A stretch of DNA of 64,000 nucleotides from a virus. The notes beneath the pieces were generated by a model. It did not search any database. It worked only from the letters and a program-made list of their open reading frames with translations, and was not told the origin of the DNA. The position numbers were made by a program, and so were the translations under genes. Shown here piece by piece: positions 3,877 to 63,235 of this stretch; the stretch's first letter is position 1, and every line of letters begins with the position of its first letter. The stretch spans positions 1 to 64,000 of the IMG/VR virus record IMGVR_UViG_3300025154_000086. The stretch is one strand, 5' to 3'.

Positions 3877-3906
3877 CTTAACTTATAAGTTAACTCTTAT
3901 ATTAAG
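3877..3906 (-). promoter_or_regulatory. 30-bp bipartite promoter-like element, copy 1
   Basis: Minus strand CTTAAT, 18 bp, GTTAAG. The right half and following TTTAAA match copy 39242-39271 (GTTAAGTTTGAA). It lies 14 bp before the ATG of the 349-residue gene. It is one of six good copies with exactly 18-bp spacing. Confidence 0.5.
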
Positions 3907-14440: not shown

Positions 14441-14815
14441 TTATTCTCTTCCAAAATGTTCGTTCTGATCAATGCTCTCATTTGGAATATATGCGTAATC
14501 ATCCCCATCATTATCAACATAATGAACATCGCCGTTATTTGCGTACTGCCGTTCCCGCGCGTTCATATAATTAATTGCATTCACATAGTCCTGCTCTTCA
14601 TCTCCCGAAGAAACTTTCTCTCTAATTTCTTCGTTAAAGTTCTCAAACTTTTCTTGCAGCTTGTTCTCATATTGCTGCAATAATTTTGGTTCGTGCTTTT
14701 TTAATATCGGGTAAAGCACTTCCCAATATGGACCGGTCAACTTAAAGTTTCCCGTTCCATCTTCCGTTTGTATCCATGTGTTAAGTAATTGCTTAACTTT
14801 CTCTCTTAGTTCCAT
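14441..14815 (-). CDS. Hypothetical protein, 124 aa, coupled to the SNF2 polyvalent gene
   Basis: Starts at 14815, overlapping the stop of the 2175-residue gene by 1 bp, so the two are probably translationally coupled. N-terminal half: helical segments with a GPYWEVLYPIL stretch. C-terminal half: acidic and asparagine-rich, probably disordered. Its coupling to the giant gene suggests a partner, chaperone or packaging helper for that protein, which is inference from arrangement only. Confidence 0.55.
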   Translation of the reverse strand: MELREKVKQLLNTWIQTEDGTGNFKLTGPYWEVLYPILKKHEPKLLQQYENKLQEKFENFNEEIREKVSSGDEEQDYVNAINYMNARERQYANNGDVHYVDNDGDDYAYIPNESIDQNEHFGRE

Positions 14816-17800
14816 TATGCCGCAACTCCTCTCATTTTATTTGTAAGTATATCCTCTAATAAATCTTTGTTATCACTTTTTATTTCATCAATCGCCCTGG
14901 CTCTATCAATAGCCTCGGCAGTAATTAAACTCGGATTGAACCTATACTCTCCGCCGTCTTCCTTTATGTGGTAATTATCAAAAAACTCTGCCCTTAACGC
15001 ATGGCTAAAATCAGTTTGCTCGTTCCAAGCCTTACCTTGCATAATTCTTTTATAAGTATAATCACTCATATACCCTTTTTCAAACAACCGCTTTAATTCT
15101 TGTTTATACTTTGCGCCGGTTGTATGGATGGCAATACTTGTTTCAGTTGCTTCACCATTTAACCGTTTGATCTCTTTCTTAATTGCGTTTTCGTAATTCT
15201 CACCATAAATAGAAGTTGCAAAATTCTTATACTTCCTAAATTGATAATAACCCTCTCCCCAATTTTGCTTTGGTTTATTCGTTTTGATCAACTCATTAAG
15301 TATCTTTGGAAATTCCGGCTTCTCCTGTGGAAAAATTATTTTCCCTCCTTCGCTTGTAATTTCATACTTTGCATTTTCATAAACTGCTACCTTAAAATCA
15401 CCGTCCATAGTTTGATACAATACTTCATCGGTATTGTTAAGTTTATCAAGCAATTTAACTTTATTTGCTTGCAAAATTTCCTTTGGCATTTTGCTTATAA
15501 AGTTAATTCCAATTTCTTCATTATCATCAATAATTTTCTTAAACATTCCGCCTAAATCCAAATCGGTTTCTTTATACAATGCGCTAAATTCTTTATCTAA
15601 CTCCTTTGCACTTAGTGCGCGAGTACCTACCATATCACCTTGCGCACCGGCTTTATACGTTCTTATCTTCACTCTCTGGGTAGATGGCGCGTAATCTTCA
15701 ACAACATAAAACTCTCCGCTTTTACCTTCTAAAATACCACCTACCGGAATTACTTTATTTATCCCCGGTAAAATTACCGGAGTTCTGTCATAGTCAAGTT
15801 TCCCCTTATGCTCAAAATTTGCCCCGATAAGTTTTTCCGTCAAACTTCTTTCTTCCTGCTCCATCATCTGATATTGCTTTGAAGTCTTCTCTTCCATTCC
15901 GGCTTTTTTCCTTTTTACTTCATACAATCTATCAAACTGTTTATAGTTCGATTGCCGTTGCTGCTCTGCAAGTGCATCTTGTAATTTTTTATTTCTGAAT
16001 GCCAATAACGCTTTTGCCTGTTCCGGATTATCGGCTAACTCAATCATCATCTCATCCGCTTCTAGCTGAACCTCGTCATCCCAACGGCTCGTTTCACCTT
16101 TTAAGAACTTATCAACCATTCCCGCCTTATCCATAATTTTGGTATTCATAAATCCGTCAATACTTCCTTTCGTCAAGTAGTAATGCGTATTTACACTGTC
16201 TAATGGATTCCCTTGCCGTATCCCTCTTCCGTTCCCTTGCTCTATCTGTAAATGGTTCCAAGCCGGTTGCAAGTGGTGAATATCGCTTGTCATATAGTTA
16301 AAATTTAATCCCTCTCCCATAGTTGCATAATTACCAATTACAACCTTATACTTTCCATTGTTGTAATCTTTGCTTATCTGTAATCTTTTGCTCGAGCTGC
16401 TAACCGTTTTTCCGTTTACAATTATTATTTCGTTCTCCGGGATACCCGATTTTATCAAATCATTTTTAATCTTATCGTGTAAAGCTGTGTTGATGGCGAA
16501 AATAATTTGTTTGCCTCCACTCTTATGTATTGATAATGCATTCTCATTCAACTGCGCGAACTTCTTTAAATCACTATGCTGTTTAACCAAATCATTGTCA
16601 ACCTTTTTAGAAAATTCACTGCTCTTTTCCTGATACCAGGGCAAATCACTCGTTGCTTTTATCAAATCTTGCTGCACCTTAAAAAAGTGATCGTCCATTG
16701 GTGTATCGTCCGGACCAATCCATTTATTCAACTCAATATATTTAGGCAAGTATTCATCATTAAAATAATTCAATACTTTAGTAGCTTCATCTTGATTAAT
16801 TAATCCTTTACCTACTTTTTCCTGTAACTTATCAGCATTAAAATCCCACGTCTTATTATCCTTATCATATACACGGCTGCTTAACATCCATAACCTTAAC
16901 TTGCAATGCTTCACTATTTCTTTTTGCCCTTCATTCAGATCACTCAGCACATTCGCCGCTTTCTCTTTCGGGAACTTTATATTTGCCTTTACACTTTCAA
17001 CATCATCCTTTGTCTTATAATCAACAAACCTAAAGAAAGTATTTCTTAATGCCTCAGCCGATTTCCATCCCGAAAATTTATTCTTTACAATAACTCTTCC
17101 GTCTGCATTTGTAGTTGGAATGTTATCAATATCTGCAAACCTTGCAACAAAGTCATCCATGTTTTGAACTTTTAATTTTTCGAGTTCTTTCTCCGCAAAC
17201 GGCACCATCATGTTAAAAACTTCTAAAGGCGAATTACTTATCGGTGTTGCCGTCAAACCATAATAGCCCATATCATTATTCTGCCCGCGTATGATCTTGC
17301 TTGCAAATAAATTGTGCATTGCCCTTTGAGATGTGCTGCTATTCACTCCGCTAATTTCACTTTCCATTGGAACTAATAAGTTTTTCGTGTCGTGGCATTC
17401 ATCTCTCACCAACATATCAATACCCAAATTATCAAGATACACTCCCCCCATTGGATCGGGTATGTTCATCATTTCGGAAAGATTCTTTAACAAAGTATCT
17501 CTTTTCTTTTTCACACTTTTTACCTGTTTGCTATCCTTATCGGCAAAGTCTGATAACCGGCTTCCTTCCGGGTAATACTTATCCATCAATTCGTTAAGCA
17601 TGTTCTTCTTAGTTTCCGGTGAAAAGTCAATTGTACCGAACAAATCACGGCTCATTAAAATCATGTCAAAATCTTCATTTGCTGCACGTTGCAATTTCAA
17701 TTCTTTCTCTTCACGGCTTTCTTCAATCCAAGCGCCGGTAGAATCTTTTTTGTAACCAACTAACAAATAATTTACCCCTTGCGTCCACTTCTCAATTTCC

Positions 17801-20800
17801 GCAACCCAATTTAACAACACCGATTTCGGAGAAACTATACACGGCTTATTTGCCCTTCCCGTCTCTTTACTCAACAAAGTTAAAGTTAATGCTTCAAGGG
17901 TTTTTCCTAAACCCACACCATGCGCTATCATACCTTTGCCGGATTCATACATCCGTCTTACAGTTGCCCATGTATGCCCGCCCGCCTTATCTCTTCCGCT
18001 AATATCTTTTCCGCTTGCATCTTTACCAACTACTCTATCATAAGCAAAATGCTTTATTCCCTCTATCGGTTTTTCGTCATACGTTTTTTGTGTGTATGAA
18101 TTAAACAGCCTATTATAAGTATCTGCAATTTTATCAGCTTCTTCACTATCGGATAAATACTGCTTAAAATCTGTTTCAAGCTGTAAGACTTGTTCTTTTT
18201 TGGCTATTCCTTCCTCAGTCCGCAACGCCGGTAAACCTAACCCATTCATCTTATTTAAAATCATAAACAATAAAGGATGCTCATCTTTATTAAAGAGATC
18301 CCGCAATTCTTTCTTTACACTTGTTGATTTTCCCTCTTTCGTAATATCTGCATAACTTAAATATAATTTTGCCGAACTCTCATCAACCGGAAGAATAAAT
18401 CCGCTCTTTTCATCTTTGCGTAATTCACCTAAGAAATGCGCCCCTATCTTTTCTTCCAAATATTTGTTCAAAATTCCAATATCGTAAATAGTCCCTGCAT
18501 CGCTTAACATTATCGGCAGTTGCTTTATCTCCCTTATGTTCGCTCTCGTCTTCGCCTCAATTATCTGATCTTCTAACTTTCGCATTTTTTGCGCGTTAAG
18601 TTCTTTTTCTTTATCGCTTAACTTTTCGTTCTTGGATTCCTTCTTCAGTTCTGTCCGTTGCTTTTCCCAGGCGTCTATTTTTTCATAAATGTAACCGTAA
18701 AGGACTTCCTCTTTCGGTTTATAATTTCCCTCTTCATCAAAATAAATTTCATCGCTGTATGCAAGCTCTCTTTCAATATCTCCATCCCCTTCATACTCGC
18801 CTCGTATCGTTTGATAATCCGTAGGAAAATTATTTGCAAAAAGAAATCCGATCACCGAAACAATATCGTTCCGGTCCACCGTTCCTATTTCGCTCTTCGT
18901 TTGATAAACTTTATAAAAAGACAGCGGATCATCAAACATCTTGATAGTGTTCCCGTTCTTATCATAGCTACCTGCTAAATCCAAGAGTGGCGCGTTTCCG
19001 CTGCTTCTAAAAAATTTATTCAACTTCAAATTATCAATTGGGTGTCCGTACTTTTCAATAAAATCCTTCAGTAATATTTTCAGTTTCCCCGCTTCCATTT
19101 GCGCCTCTTCAGCGGATAATCTTCCGTCTTGCAACTCTTTTCTGAAATCCTTTACTGCTAAACCAAGAATAACTCCCTTTGTTAAATATTCGGTCTGAAA
19201 ATCATTCTTGCCGTTGTATCCATCCAGCTCATTAACTATCCTTGTTTGTCCGAACAGTTTAAGTTGGTCCTTATTCAATCCGTACAAATAACCGATATCC
19301 TCACTCTTAATTCTCCATTCATCCCAACTCTTAATACCAAGCTTTTGTACATCTTCCGGTAAATTCTGTAATACTATTTCCTGATCTTTTAATCTTTCCC
19401 ATCTATGATTTTTATTAAGAATATAAGTTCTTCCGTTTAATATCTTTACATCTCCCGGCTCAAGTTCTTTTTCCAACTCACCATACTTGCTAACATCAAT
19501 ACCTAAACTACTGTAATCCCTTGCATCATGGTTTAATAATTCACCGACTTTTTCCAAATCTTCCTTTGTAACATCTCCCTTCCAGATCTTCATTCCGAAC
19601 ATTCCGCTCGTTTCCGTACCTAACGCAAACTCCGGATTATTCTTAAAGAAATTTCCCGAAACAAAATCTGCATCCAAAACCATATCATCATAAGCCTCAC
19701 CAAGTTTTTCCTTTGGTAGATTACTTAAATGCTCTATCACTTCCGGCGGTCTTTTCTTAAAGAAAACTATATCTGTGGTTACTGCTGCGTCTGCATGTTT
19801 AAAGGCTCCGGTTGGTACTCTTATCGCTCCAAGGAATTCCCCTTTTTTGTTTATCTCTCCCCGCCATTGATTAAGTTGATTATCCATTATAGATGTTGGA
19901 ACAATCATTGCCATTATTCCCCCCGGTTTCAACATATCCAAACCTCTATCAATAAAATATTGCTCGTGGAATTTTATATCACTCTTCTCCCTATCATCCA
20001 TCGCGCTCAATCCTCTTTTACCAAACGGACAATTCCCAACAATAGCGTCATATTCTCCCCCTTCTAAATCCGCTCCCATGTTTTCATAGTCTTTAATAAA
20101 CTGCTCGAAGCTCTGTATCCTTATATCGTGCTCGTTGCCGTGTAAAATCTGCCCGATGCGTCCGCTCGTTTCTTCAATTTCAATTCCGGTAACAAGCGCT
20201 TTCTCCGGTGCGGTCTCAATAAAAATCCCCGTTCCCATTGATGGCTCTAAAACATTTCCTCCCTTAAAACCTAACTTCCCTATCATATCCCAAATAAATT
20301 CCGCTTCATCCTTACGTGTGTAAAACTCATTAAGAGAAATATCCTCAATAGTATCGCCCAACAATCCGCCGCGCCCGGTGTACTGCGCCAAAAGCTCTAC
20401 ATCCTCAGCGCTCATCTCATCGTTTTTCTTTGTCTTTAATAACTCCTCAACCCTGGCGTTTATCTCTTTCCGGTTCTTCTTCCCCTTAACAACTTTAATT
20501 TCCGCCTTCGGCTCTTTTCTCTCTTCTTTTGGCTGATTGAAAAGATCGTCCTTTGTTTCCGGCTGCTCTTTTGGTTTTATCGGTTCCGCTTTTGGTGGTC
20601 TGCTTTCCGCCCTATTGCCTACTGCCGACTGCCGACTGCCGACCGTTACCTTCTTATCAAACAACGATAATTCTTTCGGTTTACTCTCCTCCTTATCCGC
20701 ACGGAACAACCGCTTTACAAGAGGATTCTTGTTACTCCGCCTCACCTCGTAAGTGTGCCCGTCCTTCTGCTTTGTTTGTCCTTCGATAACTTCATTCTCA

Positions 20801-21342
20801 AACATTCCCAACTGCGTACCGAACGCTTTTAACATTACCCCAAACGCTTTAAGCAATTTCGGTTTATCTAACGTTGCTAACGCTTTTTTCTTAAACTCAT
20901 CAAAACTTATTTCTTTCATGCTGCCAAAAAACTTTGGACTGTCATACTGCTTCAAATATGCAGTCTTCGCTTCTTCGGCAGTGTCAAAACCCAACATACA
21001 TTTTTGCTCATCAAACTTTCCGGTTAACGGATTATTCTGATCAACAATAAAAACTTTTTCACTCTCTCTGTTATCGCCTATATAACAATCGATCTTCTCA
21101 CCGTCCGAAACACTTTCCGTCCGCCTTATGTAACCATAAGGGGCGTGCATGAACGTTTCCCACTTTGTCCCATCATCATTCACCCCGCGCCGTATGCTTC
21201 CCTTTTTATTTTCTATAGCAATATCAAGCCCTTTAAAATAAATTCTATCCTGAAGCTTAAAAGTCTTTCCCGCCTTTAACTTATCGTCAAGATTTTCAAC
21301 AATTACTTTACTCTTTGCTATTGTAATTCCAAATATTTTCAT
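14815..21342 (-). CDS. Giant polyvalent protein: pyrophosphatase-like, DNA methylase and SNF2 helicase domains (DarB-like), 2175 aa
   Basis: Domain order: residues about 25-160, an InPase-type domain seen in phage polyvalent proteins (GYIRRTESVSDGEKIDCYIGD). Residues 160-290, a low-complexity linker with GACTGCC-type repeats. Residues about 310-560, an N6-adenine methylase with motif I EPSMGTGIF (about 364) and motif IV GNCPFG (about 437). Then a superfamily II SNF2-type helicase with Walker A HGVGLGKTLE (about 1140), DECH box (about 1315) and motif VI QGNGRGIRQG (about 1704). The tail resembles other phage methylase-helicase giants. P1 DarB and its relatives have this methylase-helicase order, are packaged in the head and protect injected DNA from restriction. 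The same role is likely here. Motif IV is unusual: Cys replaces the first Pro of NPPF. Confidence 0.85.
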   Translation of the reverse strand: MKIFGITIAKSKVIVENLDDKLKAGKTFKLQDRIYFKGLDIAIENKKGSIRRGVNDDGTKWETFMHAPYGYIRRTESVSDGEKIDCYIGDNRESEKVFIVDQNNPLTGKFDEQKCMLGFDTAEEAKTAYLKQYDSPKFFGSMKEISFDEFKKKALATLDKPKLLKAFGVMLKAFGTQLGMFENEVIEGQTKQKDGHTYEVRRSNKNPLVKRLFRADKEESKPKELSLFDKKVTVGSRQSAVGNRAESRPPKAEPIKPKEQPETKDDLFNQPKEERKEPKAEIKVVKGKKNRKEINARVEELLKTKKNDEMSAEDVELLAQYTGRGGLLGDTIEDISLNEFYTRKDEAEFIWDMIGKLGFKGGNVLEPSMGTGIFIETAPEKALVTGIEIEETSGRIGQILHGNEHDIRIQSFEQFIKDYENMGADLEGGEYDAIVGNCPFGKRGLSAMDDREKSDIKFHEQYFIDRGLDMLKPGGIMAMIVPTSIMDNQLNQWRGEINKKGEFLGAIRVPTGAFKHADAAVTTDIVFFKKRPPEVIEHLSNLPKEKLGEAYDDMVLDADFVSGNFFKNNPEFALGTETSGMFGMKIWKGDVTKEDLEKVGELLNHDARDYSSLGIDVSKYGELEKELEPGDVKILNGRTYILNKNHRWERLKDQEIVLQNLPEDVQKLGIKSWDEWRIKSEDIGYLYGLNKDQLKLFGQTRIVNELDGYNGKNDFQTEYLTKGVILGLAVKDFRKELQDGRLSAEEAQMEAGKLKILLKDFIEKYGHPIDNLKLNKFFRSSGNAPLLDLAGSYDKNGNTIKMFDDPLSFYKVYQTKSEIGTVDRNDIVSVIGFLFANNFPTDYQTIRGEYEGDGDIERELAYSDEIYFDEEGNYKPKEEVLYGYIYEKIDAWEKQRTELKKESKNEKLSDKEKELNAQKMRKLEDQIIEAKTRANIREIKQLPIMLSDAGTIYDIGILNKYLEEKIGAHFLGELRKDEKSGFILPVDESSAKLYLSYADITKEGKSTSVKKELRDLFNKDEHPLLFMILNKMNGLGLPALRTEEGIAKKEQVLQLETDFKQYLSDSEEADKIADTYNRLFNSYTQKTYDEKPIEGIKHFAYDRVVGKDASGKDISGRDKAGGHTWATVRRMYESGKGMIAHGVGLGKTLEALTLTLLSKETGRANKPCIVSPKSVLLNWVAEIEKWTQGVNYLLVGYKKDSTGAWIEESREEKELKLQRAANEDFDMILMSRDLFGTIDFSPETKKNMLNELMDKYYPEGSRLSDFADKDSKQVKSVKKKRDTLLKNLSEMMNIPDPMGGVYLDNLGIDMLVRDECHDTKNLLVPMESEISGVNSSTSQRAMHNLFASKIIRGQNNDMGYYGLTATPISNSPLEVFNMMVPFAEKELEKLKVQNMDDFVARFADIDNIPTTNADGRVIVKNKFSGWKSAEALRNTFFRFVDYKTKDDVESVKANIKFPKEKAANVLSDLNEGQKEIVKHCKLRLWMLSSRVYDKDNKTWDFNADKLQEKVGKGLINQDEATKVLNYFNDEYLPKYIELNKWIGPDDTPMDDHFFKVQQDLIKATSDLPWYQEKSSEFSKKVDNDLVKQHSDLKKFAQLNENALSIHKSGGKQIIFAINTALHDKIKNDLIKSGIPENEIIIVNGKTVSSSSKRLQISKDYNNGKYKVVIGNYATMGEGLNFNYMTSDIHHLQPAWNHLQIEQGNGRGIRQGNPLDSVNTHYYLTKGSIDGFMNTKIMDKAGMVDKFLKGETSRWDDEVQLEADEMMIELADNPEQAKALLAFRNKKLQDALAEQQRQSNYKQFDRLYEVKRKKAGMEEKTSKQYQMMEQEERSLTEKLIGANFEHKGKLDYDRTPVILPGINKVIPVGGILEGKSGEFYVVEDYAPSTQRVKIRTYKAGAQGDMVGTRALSAKELDKEFSALYKETDLDLGGMFKKIIDDNEEIGINFISKMPKEILQANKVKLLDKLNNTDEVLYQTMDGDFKVAVYENAKYEITSEGGKIIFPQEKPEFPKILNELIKTNKPKQNWGEGYYQFRKYKNFATSIYGENYENAIKKEIKRLNGEATETSIAIHTTGAKYKQELKRLFEKGYMSDYTYKRIMQGKAWNEQTDFSHALRAEFFDNYHIKEDGGEYRFNPSLITAEAIDRARAIDEIKSDNKDLLEDILTNKMRGVAA
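20603..20645. repeat. GACTGCC short repeat inside coding sequence
   Basis: Tandem CTGCCGACTGCCGACTGCC in the linker of the 2175-residue gene. The same short repeat lies in the linkers of the other two giant genes (5866-5935 and 28705-28742), translated each time as Q/S/A/V-rich peptides. Confidence 0.8.
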
Positions 21343-23459: not shown

Positions 23460-23489
23460 GTTAATTCATATAAATTCTTATATGTTAAC
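23460..23489 (-). promoter_or_regulatory. 30-bp bipartite promoter-like element, copy 3 (decoration gene)
   Basis: Minus strand GTTAAC, 18 bp, ATTAAC, 35 bp before the ATG at 23424. Perfect half-sites and a gene bounded by its own terminator make this the clearest copy. Confidence 0.65.
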
Positions 23490-31722: not shown

Positions 31723-33506
31723 TGCTGCAATTCCTTATCGATCTCGACATTACTTGCACCTTTGTATTTTTCAATCAACGCTTTATCATCATCCGTTAAT
31801 TCTCCATCTCCGTTCTGTTCTCCTTCTGCGCCCGGTTCTGCTCCCGGTTGTCCTGGCATTCCGCCCATTTGTTGCTGCTGCTCTGCCGTTTGCTTTTGCG
31901 CAAAAGATTGCATCTTAAACTGTACTGCCGCTCTTATTATCTCACTATTCACTCCGGGAATGTCAAAAAGATTCGTCTCCTCATCAATCATTAAAGTGTA
32001 TTTCTCTTTATCCTCTTCAGCCAAAACATCATTAAAACTTTTAAAAGTCTGTAAGTTCAACTTTGTTATTTCTTGCTTTAACTTCTTATCCTCAATCTCA
32101 AATCCGGCAAAATCAAGTTCAACCTTCATTTGCGTCAACTGCTGAAAGAGGTTCAATCCGTACTTGTCCGTAACGTTAAGTGAATCCTTTAAGTGAGTAA
32201 GAAAAGTCCTTTCACCCATATCCCTATTTTCGTTTACAACGCCGTCCGCACTCTTCTCCCCTATACTTTGCGGTCTTATTGCGTCACTGTGTGCGCCTAA
32301 ACTTACTTCACGCGGATCTGTTCCACTCAACCGGCAAAAAATGGAAAACAAAAGTGTAATCCAAAGATGGTATTCCATTTCGCGACTGTTCCCGCCTATG
32401 CCTACCCACTTACCGTCCCCTTTCTCACTGTTCAAACCCATTATCGGAAATCGGTTCGGTGCGGTTCCGCCCATGTAGGCGCTCATTACCTTTTTCAATT
32501 TCTCTAACTGCAACGCTCCAATGCCGCCGCCTGTAAACAACACAAACCCTTTTGGTAATTTGTTGTTCATAAAATTACTTGCGTTCATCTTCAGCGCGTT
32601 AATAATGTAAGTTAGAATGGTGATCGATTGTTCAACTATCCCGTAACCCCTTTGTGCAAACCTAAAATCACTCCTGGTAAAAAAGTGAAACTTTCTTACG
32701 TTGTAATCCGTTGCCGCTCCTAACCGGCGGTTATTGTAATGCAACACATAATCCGGTTCAACGTTTTCCTCGTCAAGAAAAGCTCGTTTACCCGTTACCA
32801 TTTCTTCCCAATTCTCCATGTACGGTGTCATAAAATCATCGCCCAACCTCCAATCCGGGTGTATCCTCGTTTTCTTAAGCACCGGTTTATAAATAATAGG
32901 GTCTTGTAAGTGTATAGCTATCGGATCGCCCACCCCATCACGCCGTATCTCACAAGTAATGTCATCTAAATCAAACCAATCCTCATAGGCGTTACCGATA
33001 AATTTTGCAAAATTTGCACCTCTATCGTTTGCCGGGTAAAAGAAGTTCTTAAAAATCTTGTCTTCCCAAAATCTTAACCTTAGCTTTTCATCCTTTGTCG
33101 GTGCGTAATCGGGATCGCTAAAAATTAGTTTTGCGCCTCTTTGTATCCCGTCTGATTTTGGCACTCTTCCGTATTGCGCTAAACCAAGTCTGCGCTGGTT
33201 CTTTATCAACCTTCCCGCTTCCGTACTGCCTGCACGTCTTAGTACACGGTAAGGCACATCACTATTTTCCCAATTGATTATCTTCTGCTGTCCGCTGTAT
33301 TCAAAAGTAAACCCCTCAATCTCTTGTAACACTGAATTCATCTCCTCCGCAAGAGGAAGAACAATTCCTCCCGATTTCCCTTGCTCGCTCAAACGTTTTT
33401 GAAGCGGTTCATCCATCAGCATATCGTCTAACAATTCCTCCGTACTTAGTACATGTTCTTCGGCATCTGTGGGATTTTTTGCGCTTTGATCTAAAAATAC
33501 GTTCAT
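31719..33506 (-). CDS. Portal protein, 595 aa
   Basis: Dodecameric portal at the capsid vertex through which DNA is packaged. The long middle region contains QRGYGIVEQSITILTYIINA, then ASNFMNNKLPKGFVLFTGG, and FCRLSGTDPREVSLGAHSDA. These segments are characteristic of phage portals (stem and wing regions with the long helix before the Asn-Lys-Leu-Pro-Lys-Gly turn). The C-terminus is Gln/Gly/Pro-rich and acidic. Length is within the usual range. It precedes the 96-residue and MuF genes. A copy of the 30-bp element overlaps its start codon (33501-33530). Confidence 0.85.
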   Translation of the reverse strand: MNVFLDQSAKNPTDAEEHVLSTEELLDDMLMDEPLQKRLSEQGKSGGIVLPLAEEMNSVLQEIEGFTFEYSGQQKIINWENSDVPYRVLRRAGSTEAGRLIKNQRRLGLAQYGRVPKSDGIQRGAKLIFSDPDYAPTKDEKLRLRFWEDKIFKNFFYPANDRGANFAKFIGNAYEDWFDLDDITCEIRRDGVGDPIAIHLQDPIIYKPVLKKTRIHPDWRLGDDFMTPYMENWEEMVTGKRAFLDEENVEPDYVLHYNNRRLGAATDYNVRKFHFFTRSDFRFAQRGYGIVEQSITILTYIINALKMNASNFMNNKLPKGFVLFTGGGIGALQLEKLKKVMSAYMGGTAPNRFPIMGLNSEKGDGKWVGIGGNSREMEYHLWITLLFSIFCRLSGTDPREVSLGAHSDAIRPQSIGEKSADGVVNENRDMGERTFLTHLKDSLNVTDKYGLNLFQQLTQMKVELDFAGFEIEDKKLKQEITKLNLQTFKSFNDVLAEEDKEKYTLMIDEETNLFDIPGVNSEIIRAAVQFKMQSFAQKQTAEQQQQMGGMPGQPGAEPGAEGEQNGDGELTDDDKALIEKYKGASNVEIDKELQQ

Positions 33507-50615: not shown

Positions 50616-50645
50616 TCCTAATTCTCAACTTTCTAATTCCTAATT
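50616..50645. repeat. Family A repeat overlapping the SbcC-like stop
   Basis: CCTAATTCTC...TTCCTAATT; the last residues IIRN and the TAG of the 914-residue gene come from it. Confidence 0.85.
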
Positions 50646-53377
50646 ATCTCAAAATATCCATCATACAGCTCAATTCGTTGGTTAATTTGTTCTATCAACT
50701 CCGGGCGGTGAGTTATAACTATCGTATTGTAAACCCCGCTTCGTTTATGCGCTTCTTCAATCACCTTAAAATAACGTTGTGCATTTTTTAAACTCAATGG
50801 TCCATCGCTCTCATCCAAATAGCCTGTATCGGCTTTTATTGCTCCCTGTGTCCTCTTAAAATGAGCAATTGCAAGTTGTAGTGCCGTTTCAACTTCAACT
50901 TTCTCCCCGCCGCTTTTGTACATGATGTTACAAATTCCATCTTCATCCAAAACTTTTATTTTGAAAACTTCTATCTGCTTTTTCTTATCCTTGGTAAAAG
51001 TTGTGGTTTCAAAAACTATTCGAAATTTGTTTTCGTAGTGGCTCAAAGATTCATTTGTTAACCTCGATATTTCAGAACCGGAGATTTCCAACTTAAGAAC
51101 CGGAATTCCAGTCTTTGACATACTTTCTCTTATAATCCCCCATTGCTTTATTTCCTCCTCAATAAACAATCTTTCCCCATTCTTGCTGTTTATCTGATCT
51201 TCCAAAAACTGCTTTCTCACCAATTTTTCATTAAGTTCAACAACCTCTATTTGGAGATCGTTTATTTTTTTATCCGATTCTTTAAGTAAAATTTCCGCTT
51301 CTTCAAGTTCTTCCCTTTTTGCCCGTAAAGTTAGTTCGCAATGTATCTTCGCCGGTTTTAGCGTCTCATCAAGTTTTAATTTGTTTGCAGCTAAATCTTT
51401 ATTCAAATTTTCTTTCTTCTCATCATACTTAGCCGTTGCGCTATTTCTCTTCTCCAAAAAGAAATTTAAGATCGTACCCTTTTCTTTTTCCAATAACTGT
51501 TTATAGGTAAGTATTTGATTTTCAACATCTTGTAAGTTATTTGTTAGCCTTTCTTGTATGTTAACAACTCTTTCTTGCAAATGCTTAATATTGTTGCGTT
51601 TATCTTCACTTGTCTGATTAATGTTCTTAATTTCACTTTCCCATAACTCGGCGTTCTTTTCTGCTTCAGCAAGTTCTTTATCAAGCGCTTCCCAATTGGT
51701 TTTTGCAAGTTCGGCTAACTTTCCCGCAACTTCCTTTATTTTCACACGCAATACGTTCACGTCTTCATTTATCAATGCTATTTGATCGGTAAAATTCTCT
51801 TTGATCTCTTTCTCTTTGGCTTTTATTTCCTCATCAGCCTCATCCAAAAACTTTTCAGTGTTTTCAATTTCCCAAAATATTGCATCGCGCTCTTCTTCCT
51901 TACCGACTATTTTAGCATCATAATCATTCTCAACATCTTTCAGCGTATCCTTGCTTTCCATCGCTCTTGTAAGGAACATACAACCCCGTCCTACAACTTC
52001 GCTGCATGGCACTTTATCAATTGTTGAGATTTCTTCCTTTAACCGGTCTAATCCGGTTTTTTTTAATTCCTCTAAAGATGCAATTAACTCATTTACCGTA
52101 GTAAGTTGATGATCTTTCTGAGATTTGACTTTATCCGTATTTGCGTAACTTTCGCGCAAAACTTGTAAAAGTTTTTCTTCCCCTTCTTTCCTCTCTTGCA
52201 ATTTTCCTATTTCTAAAAGATGTTCTTTCTCTTTTGCAAGCAATTCTGCGGCTTCTTCGCTCCGTTTTTTCTTTTCGTCAAGATTTAACGCTATCGTTCC
52301 CCGGTTCCCGAGTATCGTCTTACTCCGGGTTATCTTCGTCTCAAAATATATTTTTTGAATTTCATTATTTTTAATTTCTTCTTCATAATCAAAATTCTGC
52401 TGAGTGATTCCCGTTTTCTCTTTCTCTGCTTCTTCATTAAGATAGTTCTTCTTTGTGTCAAGTTCCTTAATGTGTTTATCAAATTCATTCGAAGTGTTGA
52501 ATGTGTTTATCTCCGCCATTTTCTGCCCTTCAATTTCCTGAAGTTCAAGTTCTTTTTTCTCGTCAAGGAATTCAACATCTTCCACAAGTTCGTTTATCTT
52601 TACAGTAATTTCTTCTTGCTGTTCAATTTTAAGATTAAGTTCTGCTATGCGAATATTGCAGTTCTCTATTTCTTCCCTAACCAACTTTATTTTCGCTTCG
52701 GTATCTTTTTTAGATGAAGTTGTTTCTTCCCGCTCATAAATCTTCTTTTCGATATCCTCTTTTGAAGTATTGCACTCTGTTTTTTCTTCAGTAAGGGTTT
52801 TTAGTTCACGTTCCAAAACTTCTAATTTATTTTGCTCTTTTTGAAGATACTTTTTTGAAAGTTCTTCGCGTGGACTGTATTCGTTAATACCAAGGATCTC
52901 ATAAAATAATTTGCGGAGGTCTCCTTCTTGTAAAGAAAATATTCCCTTGCTTGCCTGCGCTGCAAAAACAGAAGTAAAAAATAATTTTTGTGAACCGAAA
53001 AGTTTAGTCACTTCTCTATCATAACTTCCTTTCAGTCCGTCATTCAAAGCCAAACCGTCTCTGTAAAGATATGCTTCGCTTTTTCCGGTAAGCGCGTCAA
53101 TCATCAGCTTTGATTCGTAAATGTTTTCGTCAAATGAAAATTTTAGTATGCGGTATGAGTTTTTTAATTCGAAGTGTTCTTCTAACGTTCCTGGTTTGCT
53201 GGGGAGTTCTCTGTACGGTTGTGAATTGTCTATGATCGTTGTTTTGCCGTAGCCGTTGTCTCCGGTTATGGCTATTAATCCCGGTCCAAATTGGCTAAAA
53301 TCAATTTCAATTTCTTCTAACCCTAATTTTTTCCGTATGCCAATGGCACCGCGTAATTTTAATGAAAGTAATCTCAT
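50633..53377 (-). CDS. SbcC/Rad50-like ATPase, 914 aa
   Basis: SMC-type ATPase of the recombination nuclease. The N-terminal lobe has Walker A TGDNGYGKTT (residues 38-47). About 170-800 is a very long coiled coil broken at about residue 457 by PCSEVVGRGCMF, the position of the zinc hook. The hook here is C-x7-C rather than the usual C-x2-C, so metal binding is uncertain. The C-terminal lobe carries the ABC signature KSGGEKVEVETALQL (about 822), Walker B YLDESDGPLS (about 855) and VITHRPELIE. Length matches bacterial SbcC and T4 gp46-type proteins. It has a 145-bp structured leader and follows the helicase gene. Confidence 0.9.
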   Translation of the reverse strand: MRLLSLKLRGAIGIRKKLGLEEIEIDFSQFGPGLIAITGDNGYGKTTIIDNSQPYRELPSKPGTLEEHFELKNSYRILKFSFDENIYESKLMIDALTGKSEAYLYRDGLALNDGLKGSYDREVTKLFGSQKLFFTSVFAAQASKGIFSLQEGDLRKLFYEILGINEYSPREELSKKYLQKEQNKLEVLERELKTLTEEKTECNTSKEDIEKKIYEREETTSSKKDTEAKIKLVREEIENCNIRIAELNLKIEQQEEITVKINELVEDVEFLDEKKELELQEIEGQKMAEINTFNTSNEFDKHIKELDTKKNYLNEEAEKEKTGITQQNFDYEEEIKNNEIQKIYFETKITRSKTILGNRGTIALNLDEKKKRSEEAAELLAKEKEHLLEIGKLQERKEGEEKLLQVLRESYANTDKVKSQKDHQLTTVNELIASLEELKKTGLDRLKEEISTIDKVPCSEVVGRGCMFLTRAMESKDTLKDVENDYDAKIVGKEEERDAIFWEIENTEKFLDEADEEIKAKEKEIKENFTDQIALINEDVNVLRVKIKEVAGKLAELAKTNWEALDKELAEAEKNAELWESEIKNINQTSEDKRNNIKHLQERVVNIQERLTNNLQDVENQILTYKQLLEKEKGTILNFFLEKRNSATAKYDEKKENLNKDLAANKLKLDETLKPAKIHCELTLRAKREELEEAEILLKESDKKINDLQIEVVELNEKLVRKQFLEDQINSKNGERLFIEEEIKQWGIIRESMSKTGIPVLKLEISGSEISRLTNESLSHYENKFRIVFETTTFTKDKKKQIEVFKIKVLDEDGICNIMYKSGGEKVEVETALQLAIAHFKRTQGAIKADTGYLDESDGPLSLKNAQRYFKVIEEAHKRSGVYNTIVITHRPELIEQINQRIELYDGYFEIIRN

Positions 53378-53500
53378 CTTAGAACTCCTTTGAAATAAAA
53401 ATGAACGGCAGTTTGCACATTAAGAGATTGAGCTTTAATGCGAGGGAAGTCAAACTGCCGTTGGGAAAAATTTTTATTTTGCTCAATCTCTGTCTCAAAC
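53378..53500 (-). ncRNA. Structured 5' leader of the SbcC-like gene (candidate cis-regulatory RNA)
   Basis: On the minus-strand transcript: segment S1 (53491-53481), 19 nt, arm ACGGCAGTTTG (53461-53451), an inner stem CATTAA/TTAATG, arm CAAACTGCCGT (53415-53405), then the AAAGGAG ribosome binding site. The inner loop (53433-53423) is exactly complementary to S1 over 11 nt, so hairpin and upstream pairing compete or form a pseudoknot. The same architecture with different sequence occurs at 61441-61560. Confidence 0.65.
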
Positions 53501-53509
53501 TTAAAAAAT

Positions 53510-53539
53510 GTTATTTTATAAAACAATACATACATTAAC
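53510..53539 (-). promoter_or_regulatory. 30-bp bipartite promoter-like element, copy 5 (SbcC leader)
   Basis: Minus strand GTTAAT, 18 bp, AATAAC. The left half overlaps the helicase stop. It shares GTTAATGTAT and TTTTATAA with the copy at 61578-61607. Confidence 0.6.
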
Positions 53540-60654: not shown

Positions 60655-60990
60655 TTACTTTTTACTTTCTACTTTGAACTTCCCCGCCATCGTTATCCTT
60701 TTTACTCTTTCAATCAGATCATCATTTGCTCTCTTTTGTGCTTGATAACCTTCCGTTACTTTTGTTTTGTCTAACAATCCCAAAACTTCAAAAACATTGT
60801 ACATCGGCCGCTTGCTGCCCGGGTAATAACTCGGCTGAATAAGTTTAGGCACAAACTTTCGTCTAAAAACAGTGCTCTCTTTTAATCCAACAATATGTGC
60901 AGCTTCCAACTCGGAGACCGCAACGCGATTTCCGCCTTCCAACACCGTTGGCTTTTTCTTCCGTTTATCTTCCTTAACAACTTCCAACAT
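60655..60990 (-). CDS. Putative excisionase/MerR-like DNA-binding protein, 111 aa
   Basis: VAVSELEAAHIVGLKESTVF followed by RRKFVPKLIQPSYYPGSKRP is a MerR/excisionase-like winged helix: helix, turn, recognition helix and a P-x-Y-Y-P-G-S-K-R wing. It would act as a repressor or excision factor. The last residues are repeat-encoded. Overlaps the 150-residue gene by 17 bp; their products may act together. Confidence 0.6.
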   Translation of the reverse strand: MLEVVKEDKRKKKPTVLEGGNRVAVSELEAAHIVGLKESTVFRRKFVPKLIQPSYYPGSKRPMYNVFEVLGLLDKTKVTEGYQAQKRANDDLIERVKRITMAGKFKVESKK

Positions 60991-61426
60991 GTACCAATCC
61001 TTTTATATCATTTAGTAACGCTTCAATTAAAAAAGTTGATTTTATTTTATCGGTATAAGCTATCAGATCACCAATGCCCATTTTATTGCCGCTCTTATCG
61101 TAAGGATTAAACCAAGCCCTTAGCGCTTGTTCGCTTACGCATAACTTTCTTGCCAATTCTTCCCTAACTTCTTGCGCAGGTAAAAATGGATCGTTCTTTT
61201 CTACCCGTTTTTGAAAAGTTAATCCGTCAACCTCATCTTTTAGGTTCTTACAGAATCGCTGCAATACCATTTCAGATTTTGGTGTGTAACGTTCCCGTTT
61301 GTTCTCAACAAATATTCTGGTAAAACTATTTACCGGAACCCGTCCATGGGGTCTATCTTCCCTCGCTATTATAGCAAAGGAAATCCCGCGCGGGATTGTG
61401 TCGAAGATTGATATTAGATTATTCAC
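60974..61426 (-). CDS. Hypothetical protein with structured leader, 150 aa
   Basis: Start codon appears to be GTG at 61426, after AAAGGAGTTCAAG. Residues about 88-130 (PAQEVREELARKLCVSEQAL) look like a helix-turn-helix. The N-terminus (IFDTIPRGISFAIIAREDRP) is beta-like. The gene has the second structured leader (61441-61560) and its own 30-bp promoter-like element, unlike its neighbours, so its dosage seems to be controlled. Function unknown, probably DNA-binding. Confidence 0.6.
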   Translation of the reverse strand: MNNLISIFDTIPRGISFAIIAREDRPHGRVPVNSFTRIFVENKRERYTPKSEMVLQRFCKNLKDEVDGLTFQKRVEKNDPFLPAQEVREELARKLCVSEQALRAWFNPYDKSGNKMGIGDLIAYTDKIKSTFLIEALLNDIKGLVHVGSC

Positions 61427-61440
61427 CTTGAACTCCTTTG

Positions 61441-61560
61441 AGATAAATTAAAAAACCCTTGCTTTAGCGTGTGCAAATAATCGAGTTCTTTGGTAAGAAA
61501 TCCATTCACGTCCAAAACAAGGGTATTTATTTTCATTTGATTAAACTCTGATTATTTGCG
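61441..61560 (-). ncRNA. Structured 5' leader of the gene at 61426 (candidate cis-regulatory RNA)
   Basis: Minus-strand transcript: S1 (61560-61545), 19 nt, arm ACCCTTG (61525-61519), inner region, arm CAAGGGT (61462-61456) followed by TTTTTT, then AAAGGAG. The inner segment 61488-61474 is complementary to S1 over 15 bp with one bulged base. CGTG/CACG can pair between. The stem plus T run looks like a terminator, and S1 pairing would compete with it. Confidence 0.65.
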
Positions 61561-61577
61561 TATGTAATCTATAAAAG

Positions 61578-61607
61578 TTAATTTATAAAAGCAACTATAC
61601 ATTAACA
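61578..61607 (-). promoter_or_regulatory. 30-bp bipartite promoter-like element, copy 6 (leader gene)
   Basis: Minus strand GTTAAT, 18 bp, ATTAAC: half-sites are perfect inverted repeats. Shares GTTAATGTAT and TTTTATAA with copy 53510-53539; both precede structured leaders. Confidence 0.6.
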
Positions 61608-61628
61608 TTTTTATTTCCGGTCCTATTA

Positions 61629-62210
61629 TTATCTGTATATTATCGGTAATTTACCAATGTATTTATCTAGCTCTTCCTTGGTAGAACAGTTCATAAACCC
61701 GTTGAACAGCTCATCTTTCTTTAATTTTTTATGGATGATCTCCCAGCTTCGGGCTTCGTGAAATTTGTAGCCCAACCCTTCATACCCTTGCGCGTTGGAG
61801 ATTTTGTACGTTATCGCGATCGGTTCTTTCCCGGCTAAGGCATTGCTGTAAGGAATCGATTTCCCTATCTGCAATATCCCCGCATACTGCAATAGCCGCG
61901 TCATCTTGTTTGCTATCGGAGGAAGATTCCTGTTCCCTAACATTCGCATAGTTAAATATTTTTCGTCCGCGCTTCTTGCATGAATAAAGAACACCTTCTC
62001 GCTTTGCGCGTTCAAATTGTTTTTTAACTTTTCAATTTCATTCTGCTGTGAGTTTATTGTATCGGCTGTTTTTGCTTTAAACTCCTCTACATCCGCAACT
62101 GTCCGCTTCATTAATTCCCCTTGCAAACTGAATGCTAAATCCTTTAGCACGTTCATCGGCAAATTCGCTACATCTAACGCTGGCATTAATGCCATGTTAT
62201 CACCGTTCAT
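61629..62210 (-). CDS. Coiled-coil protein, possible antirepressor-like, 193 aa
   Basis: Residues 1-75 are helical with a coiled-coil (FKAKTADTINSQQNEIEKLK). Residues about 90-193 (LPPIANKMTRLLQYAGILQI ... YKFHEARSWEII) resemble the C-terminal KilA-C/antirepressor-like layout of a small winged helix followed by hydrophobic strands; the match is loose. Its start overlaps the stop of the ParB-like gene by 4 bp (ATGA), so the two are coupled. Confidence 0.5.
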   Translation of the reverse strand: MNGDNMALMPALDVANLPMNVLKDLAFSLQGELMKRTVADVEEFKAKTADTINSQQNEIEKLKNNLNAQSEKVFFIHARSADEKYLTMRMLGNRNLPPIANKMTRLLQYAGILQIGKSIPYSNALAGKEPIAITYKISNAQGYEGLGYKFHEARSWEIIHKKLKKDELFNGFMNCSTKEELDKYIGKLPIIYR

Positions 62211-63235
62211 AACTCATCTTCCTCTATTTGAAATTTCTGTCTCATCGCATAACTCCAGTCACTTATAACTTGTAGGATATGCTTTACTTCGTCTTTTACT
62301 ACTTTACTTGGTGATTCCGGCAAATACATTAACGTTGGTATCTGTAACATCTCATTCCCGATAAACCCCTTTGTTTTATCAATCCAACTGAAAATTTTTC
62401 CCATCTCCTTATACTCTTGCACGGCTTTGCTCTGGCGCTCTTTCAGTTTTTCAACTTCTTTGTGGAGGGATTCAAGTTCATCTTTCTTTTCTTTTACTTC
62501 CCTTAACCCTTTAAGCTCTGTCTCAGCTTTTGTTAATTCGCCCTTTAACTTCCGCAATTCCTCTTGCTTTTGTTCAAGCGCTTTTGTGGCTTCTTTGTCA
62601 TCCTTTTTCTTCATCAAATTTTGGATTGTTATGTCCTTACTCGATAGCTGTTCTTCTTTTTCCGCTAAACTTTCTTGCAGCTTTTTATAAGCGCCGTTTA
62701 TGCTCAGTTGGTTTTCATCAAGCGCTTTTATCAACTCCGGATCAGCGTTCTCAATCACTTTTTTTGCTTTGCGATATGTTTCTTTACCACCTAAACCAAT
62801 AGCAGTTGCAACTTTGTCATTCGTTCTTCCTTCTTCGTCTTCTCGATGTACCAATGTTGGCACATCGGGAGAATTCTTCAAATTCGCATCTTTTCTTTCT
62901 CTTGCCTTTTCCCGTTCAACCGCTTCAAGCCTTCGCGCTAAATCCATTCTTTCGGTAAATGAGAAGTTCTTCCGGTTTTCGTTCTCGCTAATTTCTATCA
63001 TCAGCCGGTGTTCGTAATCGCGTACTGTAAGCATCCTTACTTCCACTTGCATATATCCAAGCTGTTTCATTGCCATCATTCTTCTTTCGCCGGCAAGTAA
63101 AACCTTCTCCGGCGTAACAACCGGCGGATTGATCAAACCATTTACCAGGATATCCTCAGCTAATTCCGAAATATCCCCAAAATCTTTTCTTATTCTATCC
63201 TCGCGGATAATAACATCACCAATATTTACAAGCAT
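62207..63235 (-). CDS. ParB-like DNA-binding protein with coiled coil, 342 aa
   Basis: ParB N-terminal domain at residues 1-70: VIIREDRIRKDFGDISELAE, then GLINPPVV and LLAGERRMMAMKQLGY with the G-E-R-R CTP-binding box (49-52). Residues 75-170 hold the central helical DNA-binding part (MDLARRLEAVEREKA and ATAIGLGGKETYRK). About 190-290 is a long coiled coil (EKEEQLSSKDITIQNLMKKK). It probably binds specific DNA sites, for gene control or partition, like phage ParB/KorB-type regulators. No ParA is seen in the window. Confidence 0.8.
   Translation of the reverse strand: MLVNIGDVIIREDRIRKDFGDISELAEDILVNGLINPPVVTPEKVLLAGERRMMAMKQLGYMQVEVRMLTVRDYEHRLMIEISENENRKNFSFTERMDLARRLEAVEREKARERKDANLKNSPDVPTLVHREDEEGRTNDKVATAIGLGGKETYRKAKKVIENADPELIKALDENQLSINGAYKKLQESLAEKEEQLSSKDITIQNLMKKKDDKEATKALEQKQEELRKLKGELTKAETELKGLREVKEKKDELESLHKEVEKLKERQSKAVQEYKEMGKIFSWIDKTKGFIGNEMLQIPTLMYLPESPSKVVKDEVKHILQVISDWSYAMRQKFQIEEDEL

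Follow-up and report, generated by a model that had tools for sequence, protein, structure and literature searches.

The region ahead of the minus-strand gene that starts at position 61426 raises the question of whether it encodes a structured RNA leader, whether this leader is of the same type as the one preceding the SbcC-like gene of the same phage, and what such a structure would do for the messages that carry it. The window, i.e., the whole stretch of 64,000 nt analysed here, comes from a 65.9-kb IMG/VR virus record, and its close relatives are G001 (93 kb), G002 (92 kb) and G003 (69 kb), the last matching G002 in the regions compared. The minus-strand genes concerned encode a ParB-like protein, a 193-aa protein, a 150-aa CII-like protein and, further downstream, SbcD, a helicase and SbcC; the proteins of the genes adjoining the leaders are 69–97% identical between the window phage and its relatives, and a search of bacterial genomes through the helicase returned no useful relatives. 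Elsewhere in the window, positions 14815–21342 encode a 2175-aa protein that matches methyltransferase/DarB-like antirestriction proteins as well as helicases, and the palindrome TTAACTTATAAGTTAA, located between two genes at 3878–3894, is also kept in G001, G002 and G004.

Architecture of the leaders

The gene at this locus (60974–61426, minus strand) has a GTG start and encodes 150 aa with a weak match to CII-like activators (phrog_101, E = 8.1e-6). Its leader, hereafter leader 2 (61559–61427, minus strand, as are all leader features given below for the window), has the architecture of a long H-type pseudoknot, in which helix S1 is formed between the putative 5′ end of the transcript and the loop of hairpin S2. 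The 5′ strand of S1 (61543–61559) is composed of S1a (GCAAATAATC, 61559–61550), the bulged A61549 and S1b (GAGTTT, 61548–61543), and pairs with 61473–61488 within the hairpin loop, where GAACTC (61488–61483) is followed by GATTATTTGC (61482–61473); this helix, which was found de novo, comprises 16 bp with one bulge and has a duplex energy of −17.0 kcal/mol. S2 pairs 61512–61524 (ACCCTTGTTTTGG) with 61455–61467 (CTAAAGCAAGGGT) over 13 bp and is extended inwards, in the constrained fold, by the 4-bp helix P3 between CGTG (61507–61510) and CACG (61468–61471), the latter beginning one base past the S1 3′ strand. Along the transcript, the order is S1 5′ strand, an 18-nt loop, S2 5′ strand with P3, a second 18-nt loop, S1 3′ strand, one base, and the 3′ strands of P3 and S2. 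The pairing of 15 bp with a bulge proposed in the preliminary description thus exists, with its ends shifted by 1–2 nt and a length of 16 bp.

The SbcC-like gene (50633–53377; 914 aa; phrog_77, E = 2.3e-22) is preceded by a leader in which S1 is formed by 53481–53491 (AGAGATTGAGC), beginning at the predicted transcription start, and 53423–53433 (GCTCAATCTCT), and S2 by 53451–53462 (AACGGCAGTTTG) and 53404–53415 (CAAACTGCCGTT). Its first loop also has 18 nt, so the equal spacing between S1 and the hairpin claimed for the two leaders holds, although at 18 rather than 19 nt. The two sequences are unrelated (global alignment, z = 0.6) and share a matching fold, in agreement with the earlier view of two unrelated sequences with one geometry, and this view can be widened to a class of structured leader, of which three related phages carry at least four distinct members. 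The two additional members, G002:31736 (leader 3) and G002:85101 (leader 4), lie in the same genome, straight before two different HNH endonuclease genes (L003, 3357–4004; L044, 6015–6656). The SbcC leader (leader 1) is homologous to leader 3 (z = 5.5) and leader 2 to leader 4 (z = 14.8); across the two families, the sequences are not significantly similar (z = 0.6–2.4). The genes behind the four leaders, encoding SbcC, the CII-like protein and the two HNH proteins, are mutually unrelated. The energies of the S1 duplexes are uniform over the four leaders (−17.0, −16.3, −16.4 and −15.6 kcal/mol), and the distance from the end of the pseudoknot to the Shine-Dalgarno sequence is about 7–15 nt in all members. 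In leader 2, the Shine-Dalgarno-like AAAGGAG (61433–61439) lies 15 nt beyond S2 and 6 nt ahead of the GTG start; the site TCAAAGGAGTTC is present in the window in three exact copies and in five with one mismatch, against 0.26 expected. According to the predicted folds, this ribosome binding site is not sequestered, being included only in a weak 3-bp CUC/GAG hairpin in the minimum free energy structure and unpaired in the centroid.

Regarding the coexistence of the helices, the energy of the nested fold with the S1 strands kept free, plus that of the S1 duplex and a pseudoknot penalty, was, in each of the five copies analysed, lower than or about equal to that of the best nested fold, in a crude estimate that omits S1b for leaders 2 and 4; the modelling thus suggests that both helices can form together, and loops of 15–18 nt spanning about 25–30 bp appear feasible but tight.

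Chance, covariation and the promoter

The similarity between the two leaders had been described as hard to explain by chance, and this was borne out by a scan of both strands of four genomes for all A-B-A′-B′ arrangements of ungapped helices, each of −11 kcal/mol stacking or better and with bounded loops, which took no account of genes, promoters or annotation. The SbcC leader ranked first (summed helix energy −43.5), the leader of G002 and G003 at 31736/30234 came next (−41.8), the SbcC leader of G001 was fifth (−39.0), leader 2 was sixth (−36.1, S1b excluded) and G002:85101, which was also reached independently through its promoter, was seventh (−35.3). In 120 local dinucleotide shuffles, both strands included, values of −36 or lower appeared 0.10 times per genome and values of −42 or lower never.

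Compensatory changes in relatives, on which the preliminary description had made its proposal depend, are present, with 13 both-side helix changes within the two homologous pairs and no break in the compared cores. Between leaders 1 and 3, 23 base pairs could be compared, of which nine differ on both sides (four in S1 and five in S2), one differs on one side and none is broken; between leaders 2 and 4, the 8-pair core of S1a holds three both-side changes with none broken and S1b one more, whereas the last two pairs of S1a in leader 2 have no counterpart in leader 4 and the S2 core is invariant, hence uninformative on covariation. When the letters of the 3′ strands were redealt in 20,000 trials, canonical pairs never exceeded 22 of 31, compared with the 31 of 31 observed. 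The SbcC leader of G001 is a counter-example, since a C·C mismatch at its second S1 pair indicates that the terminal pairing is imperfectly kept in that phage. Overall, the fold of the leaders is clearly preserved by selection. That the pairing arose by chance, or was conserved on account of a short coding ORF within the leader, is extremely unlikely, the former being disfavoured by the shuffle counts and the covariation. A 37-codon ORF with the same ATGAAA start is found both in leader 2 (within 61543–61424) and in leader 4 (G002:85101–85230), as a coding origin would predict, but a length difference of 1 nt, in an alignment read by eye, shifts the frames of the second halves, so that these ORFs are probably non-coding, and leader 1 is devoid of such an ORF; the coding explanation was dropped on the difference in frame.

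The leaders are also characterized by what precedes them. The promoter-like GTTAATGTAT pointed out in the preliminary description does precede both leaders, although it makes up the left half of a motif of 30 bp and is not specific on its own, since one of its three exact copies in the window (62333–62324) sits inside the gene 62207–63235. The complete motif, GTTAAYRYA-N17-TAAC, is found at 61577–61606 (GTTAATGTATAGTTGCTTTTATAAATTAAC) for leader 2 and at 53510–53539 for the SbcC leader, with further copies in the window at 23489–23460 and 11903–11874, likewise on the minus strand, some copies being near-palindromic. This spacing accounts for 42 sites in seven related contigs, against 0–7 at each other spacing from 8 to 27, a count inflated by copies common to near-identical contigs and including some copies inside genes. 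The motif is often situated just upstream of a gene, with many sites in G001 and G002, and it is probably a phage promoter or operator. Another likely operator site in the window is the palindrome ATATACAAACGTTTGTATAT on the minus strand at approximately 2600–2690, inside a promoter-like TTGACT/TATATT sequence.

Within the promoter region of leader 2, a TTG of the −33/−35 element (61592–61594) and a −7/−10 box (61564–61571, TAGATTAC) can be recognized; the box aligns with TAAGTTTG, TAAATTTG and TATATTTC of the other leaders, and TTG and box are separated by 20 nt in every one of the five leader copies. The Bacteroidota consensus TAnnTTTG spans −12 to −5 in Flavobacterium (PMC9723704), and this box position would place the putative start at G61559, the fifth base past the box; a sigma-70 reading of the sequence (TTGYTT, 17 bp, TAnnTT) predicts the same start. 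S1 begins exactly at the predicted +1 in leaders 1, 2 and 4 and at −1 in leader 3. The arrangement TTG-N20-TAnnTTTG showed no genome-wide enrichment, and the promoter call therefore rests on the alignment of the leaders and on two similar promoters without the fold, G001:72652 and G005:38631, which are followed by short leaders. Among 25 TTG-N20-TAnnTT sites, five carry a 5′-end helix of −13 or better, namely the four leaders and one other.

The distribution of the leaders among the phages is irregular. At the CII-like locus of G001 and G002, there is a short intergenic region without the pseudoknot, indicating that leader 2 was either acquired by the phage of the window or lost from the others; leader 4, its closest relative, precedes an HNH gene at another locus of G002. 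In the SbcC locus of G002, the promoter is kept and is followed by a diverged leader, an inserted HNH gene and SbcC. The absence of leader 2 from its locus in two relatives is what would be expected of an exchangeable cassette, and these data suggest that promoter-leader units travel as such and are taken up by HNH genes.

Possible functions of the leader

The reading that we favour, with a probability of about 0.45, is that of a cis-acting 5′-terminal RNA pseudoknot that buries the 5′ end of the mRNA against decay. Transcription would begin at about 61559, and, as the RNA emerges, its first 17 nt (the S1 5′ strand) would pair with 61488–61473, S2 then closing around them if folding is co-transcriptional. 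The terminal nucleotide would be base-paired and would lie one base from the S2/P3 helix, at the S1/P3 junction, because the S1 3′ strand abuts P3. Devoid of a single-stranded 5′ end, the triphosphate terminus would be a poor substrate for RppH-type pyrophosphohydrolases and 5′-end-dependent ribonucleases, and the message could be longer-lived, while the Shine-Dalgarno sequence beyond S2 would remain largely free for ribosomes. The sequence might drift as long as both helices persist, and the promoter-leader unit could be swapped between genes, sometimes together with HNH endonuclease genes. RppH and RNase E require the 5′ end to be single-stranded, structure at this end makes mRNA more stable in E. 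coli, and RppH of B. subtilis requires at least two unpaired 5′ nucleotides (PMC3997798), which makes protection of the 5′ end the best explanation; it would also fit unrelated genes and an unconserved sequence better than a gene-specific switch, since unrelated downstream genes favour a generic effect over a gene-specific ligand. Against it stand the two promoters of the same type without a pseudoknot, the S1 mismatch in G001 and the negative enrichment result for TTG-N20-TAnnTTTG, and, as a simple 5′ hairpin could protect the end equally well, so elaborate a fold may serve something else.

One such alternative, which appears unlikely, is a protein-bound translational operator similar to that of T4 gene 32, in which a phage RNA-binding protein reads the shape of the pseudoknot and represses translation nearby. 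The short distance between pseudoknot and Shine-Dalgarno sequence would allow a bound protein to block 30S loading, a shape kept without sequence is to be expected with a shape-reading protein, and leader RNA structure is known to restrain stand-alone homing endonucleases of phages (mobE, with segB implicated; PMC3014915), HNH genes following two of the four leaders; nevertheless, self-regulation by one product cannot cover four unrelated target genes, the two leader families lack significant similarity (z = 0.6–2.4), and in leader 2 the Shine-Dalgarno sequence is involved, at most, in the weak hairpin mentioned above. Improbable, in turn, is the transcription attenuator, where S2 and a run of T would terminate transcription and S1 would prevent it under some condition. 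The hairpin had been considered terminator-like by virtue of its TTTTTT, and six T do follow S2 in leader 2 (61455–61450); yet GTTATTATTGGAG takes their place in the homologous leader 4, in the SbcC leader the run is offset and in the remaining member of the four it is short, a terminator scan of 61300–61700 found none, and the S2 stem encloses about 44 nt, so that the combination of a G+C-rich stem, a short loop and a T-run kept in homologues is absent from leader 2. The blocking of the terminator by S1 that had been proposed is also disfavoured, since S1 pairs with the loop and not with an arm of S2, and the two helices are not in direct competition. The terminator was rejected on conservation and on the scan. 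The phage HK022 put sites exemplify a further kind of element, an antiterminator RNA whose structured 5′ end attaches to the polymerase during transcription and carries it through the terminators of long operons. Structured RNA at the predicted start of phage transcripts entering multi-gene operons would suit such a role, which is nonetheless very improbable here in view of the lack of the sequence conservation required for contact with a polymerase, the presence of the leaders before HNH genes too, the two similar promoters devoid of the structure, and the lack of an Rfam match at the gathering level.

Relation to known systems and biological meaning

Among described structures, the T4-type gene 32 mRNA pseudoknot comes closest, being a phage pseudoknot ahead of a ribosome site whose shape is kept while its sequence diverges (PMC3014915, PMC535899), and having a homing endonuclease gene (segG) as a neighbour. 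In T4, the folded part is about 28 nt and is followed by UUAAA repeats bound by gp32, whereas the leaders described here have helices of 11–16 bp, span about 90–105 nt, begin at the predicted +1 and precede unrelated genes, the downstream products (phrog_101, phrog_77 and two HNH endonucleases) including no single-stranded-DNA-binding protein. A 2010 review considered the T4 gene 32 pseudoknot as possibly the only viral example in translational autoregulation (PMC3014915). With the 5′-terminal stabilising stem-loops of the ompA and papA type, the leaders would share a paired transcript end, expected to hinder RppH and 5′-end-dependent decay (PMC3997798), but those are local hairpins, while here the pairing partner of the putative 5′ end is the loop of a hairpin further downstream. 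The hairpins of I-TevI, mobE and segB resemble two of the four cases, in which a structured leader precedes a stand-alone HNH gene; they sequester ribosome sites, whereas the Shine-Dalgarno sequence of leader 2 is outside any stable helix in the predicted folds, and the fold described here also precedes SbcC and the CII-like gene. The STAXI motif (RF01728) is likewise a pseudoknot near DNA-manipulating genes (PMC2864571), although it occurs as two or three tandem repeats and the present leaders have one copy each.

In Rfam 15, no match was obtained at the gathering score for the whole window, and a relaxed threshold yielded for the four leaders only sub-threshold matches to unrelated families (25.4 bits at most); a nucleotide search with two leaders against named phages gave short, weak AT-rich matches only. 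Pattern scans of the viral collection with the promoter and with the hairpin of leaders 2 and 4 revealed no further leaders, L154 and L155 being unrelated. In a pseudoknot scan around 80 HNH relatives, the best scores came from a few loci, none among those listed being behind the phage promoter, and L058, the HNH relative of highest identity (57%), carries the 30-bp motif without the pseudoknot. In the open-access literature searched, no description of this leader arrangement was found.

RNA families are usually recognized by a conserved sequence together with a conserved structure. In these leaders, the sequence is nearly free while geometry, position and helix stability are kept, and consequently sequence-based and covariance-model searches can miss them. 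On the basis of four distinct sequences, which form two homologous pairs and come from three genomes, they may tentatively be regarded as a previously undescribed class of phage 5′-UTR element, defined by a start-site-anchored pseudoknot of near-invariant geometry and almost free sequence, carried on a mobile promoter-leader cassette that also accompanies HNH genes, and burying the mRNA 5′ end. Similar leaders may be common in phages and, if the 5′ end is truly buried, they would represent a phage strategy for stabilising chosen messages, as well as a compact, sequence-programmable mRNA stabiliser for laboratory use.
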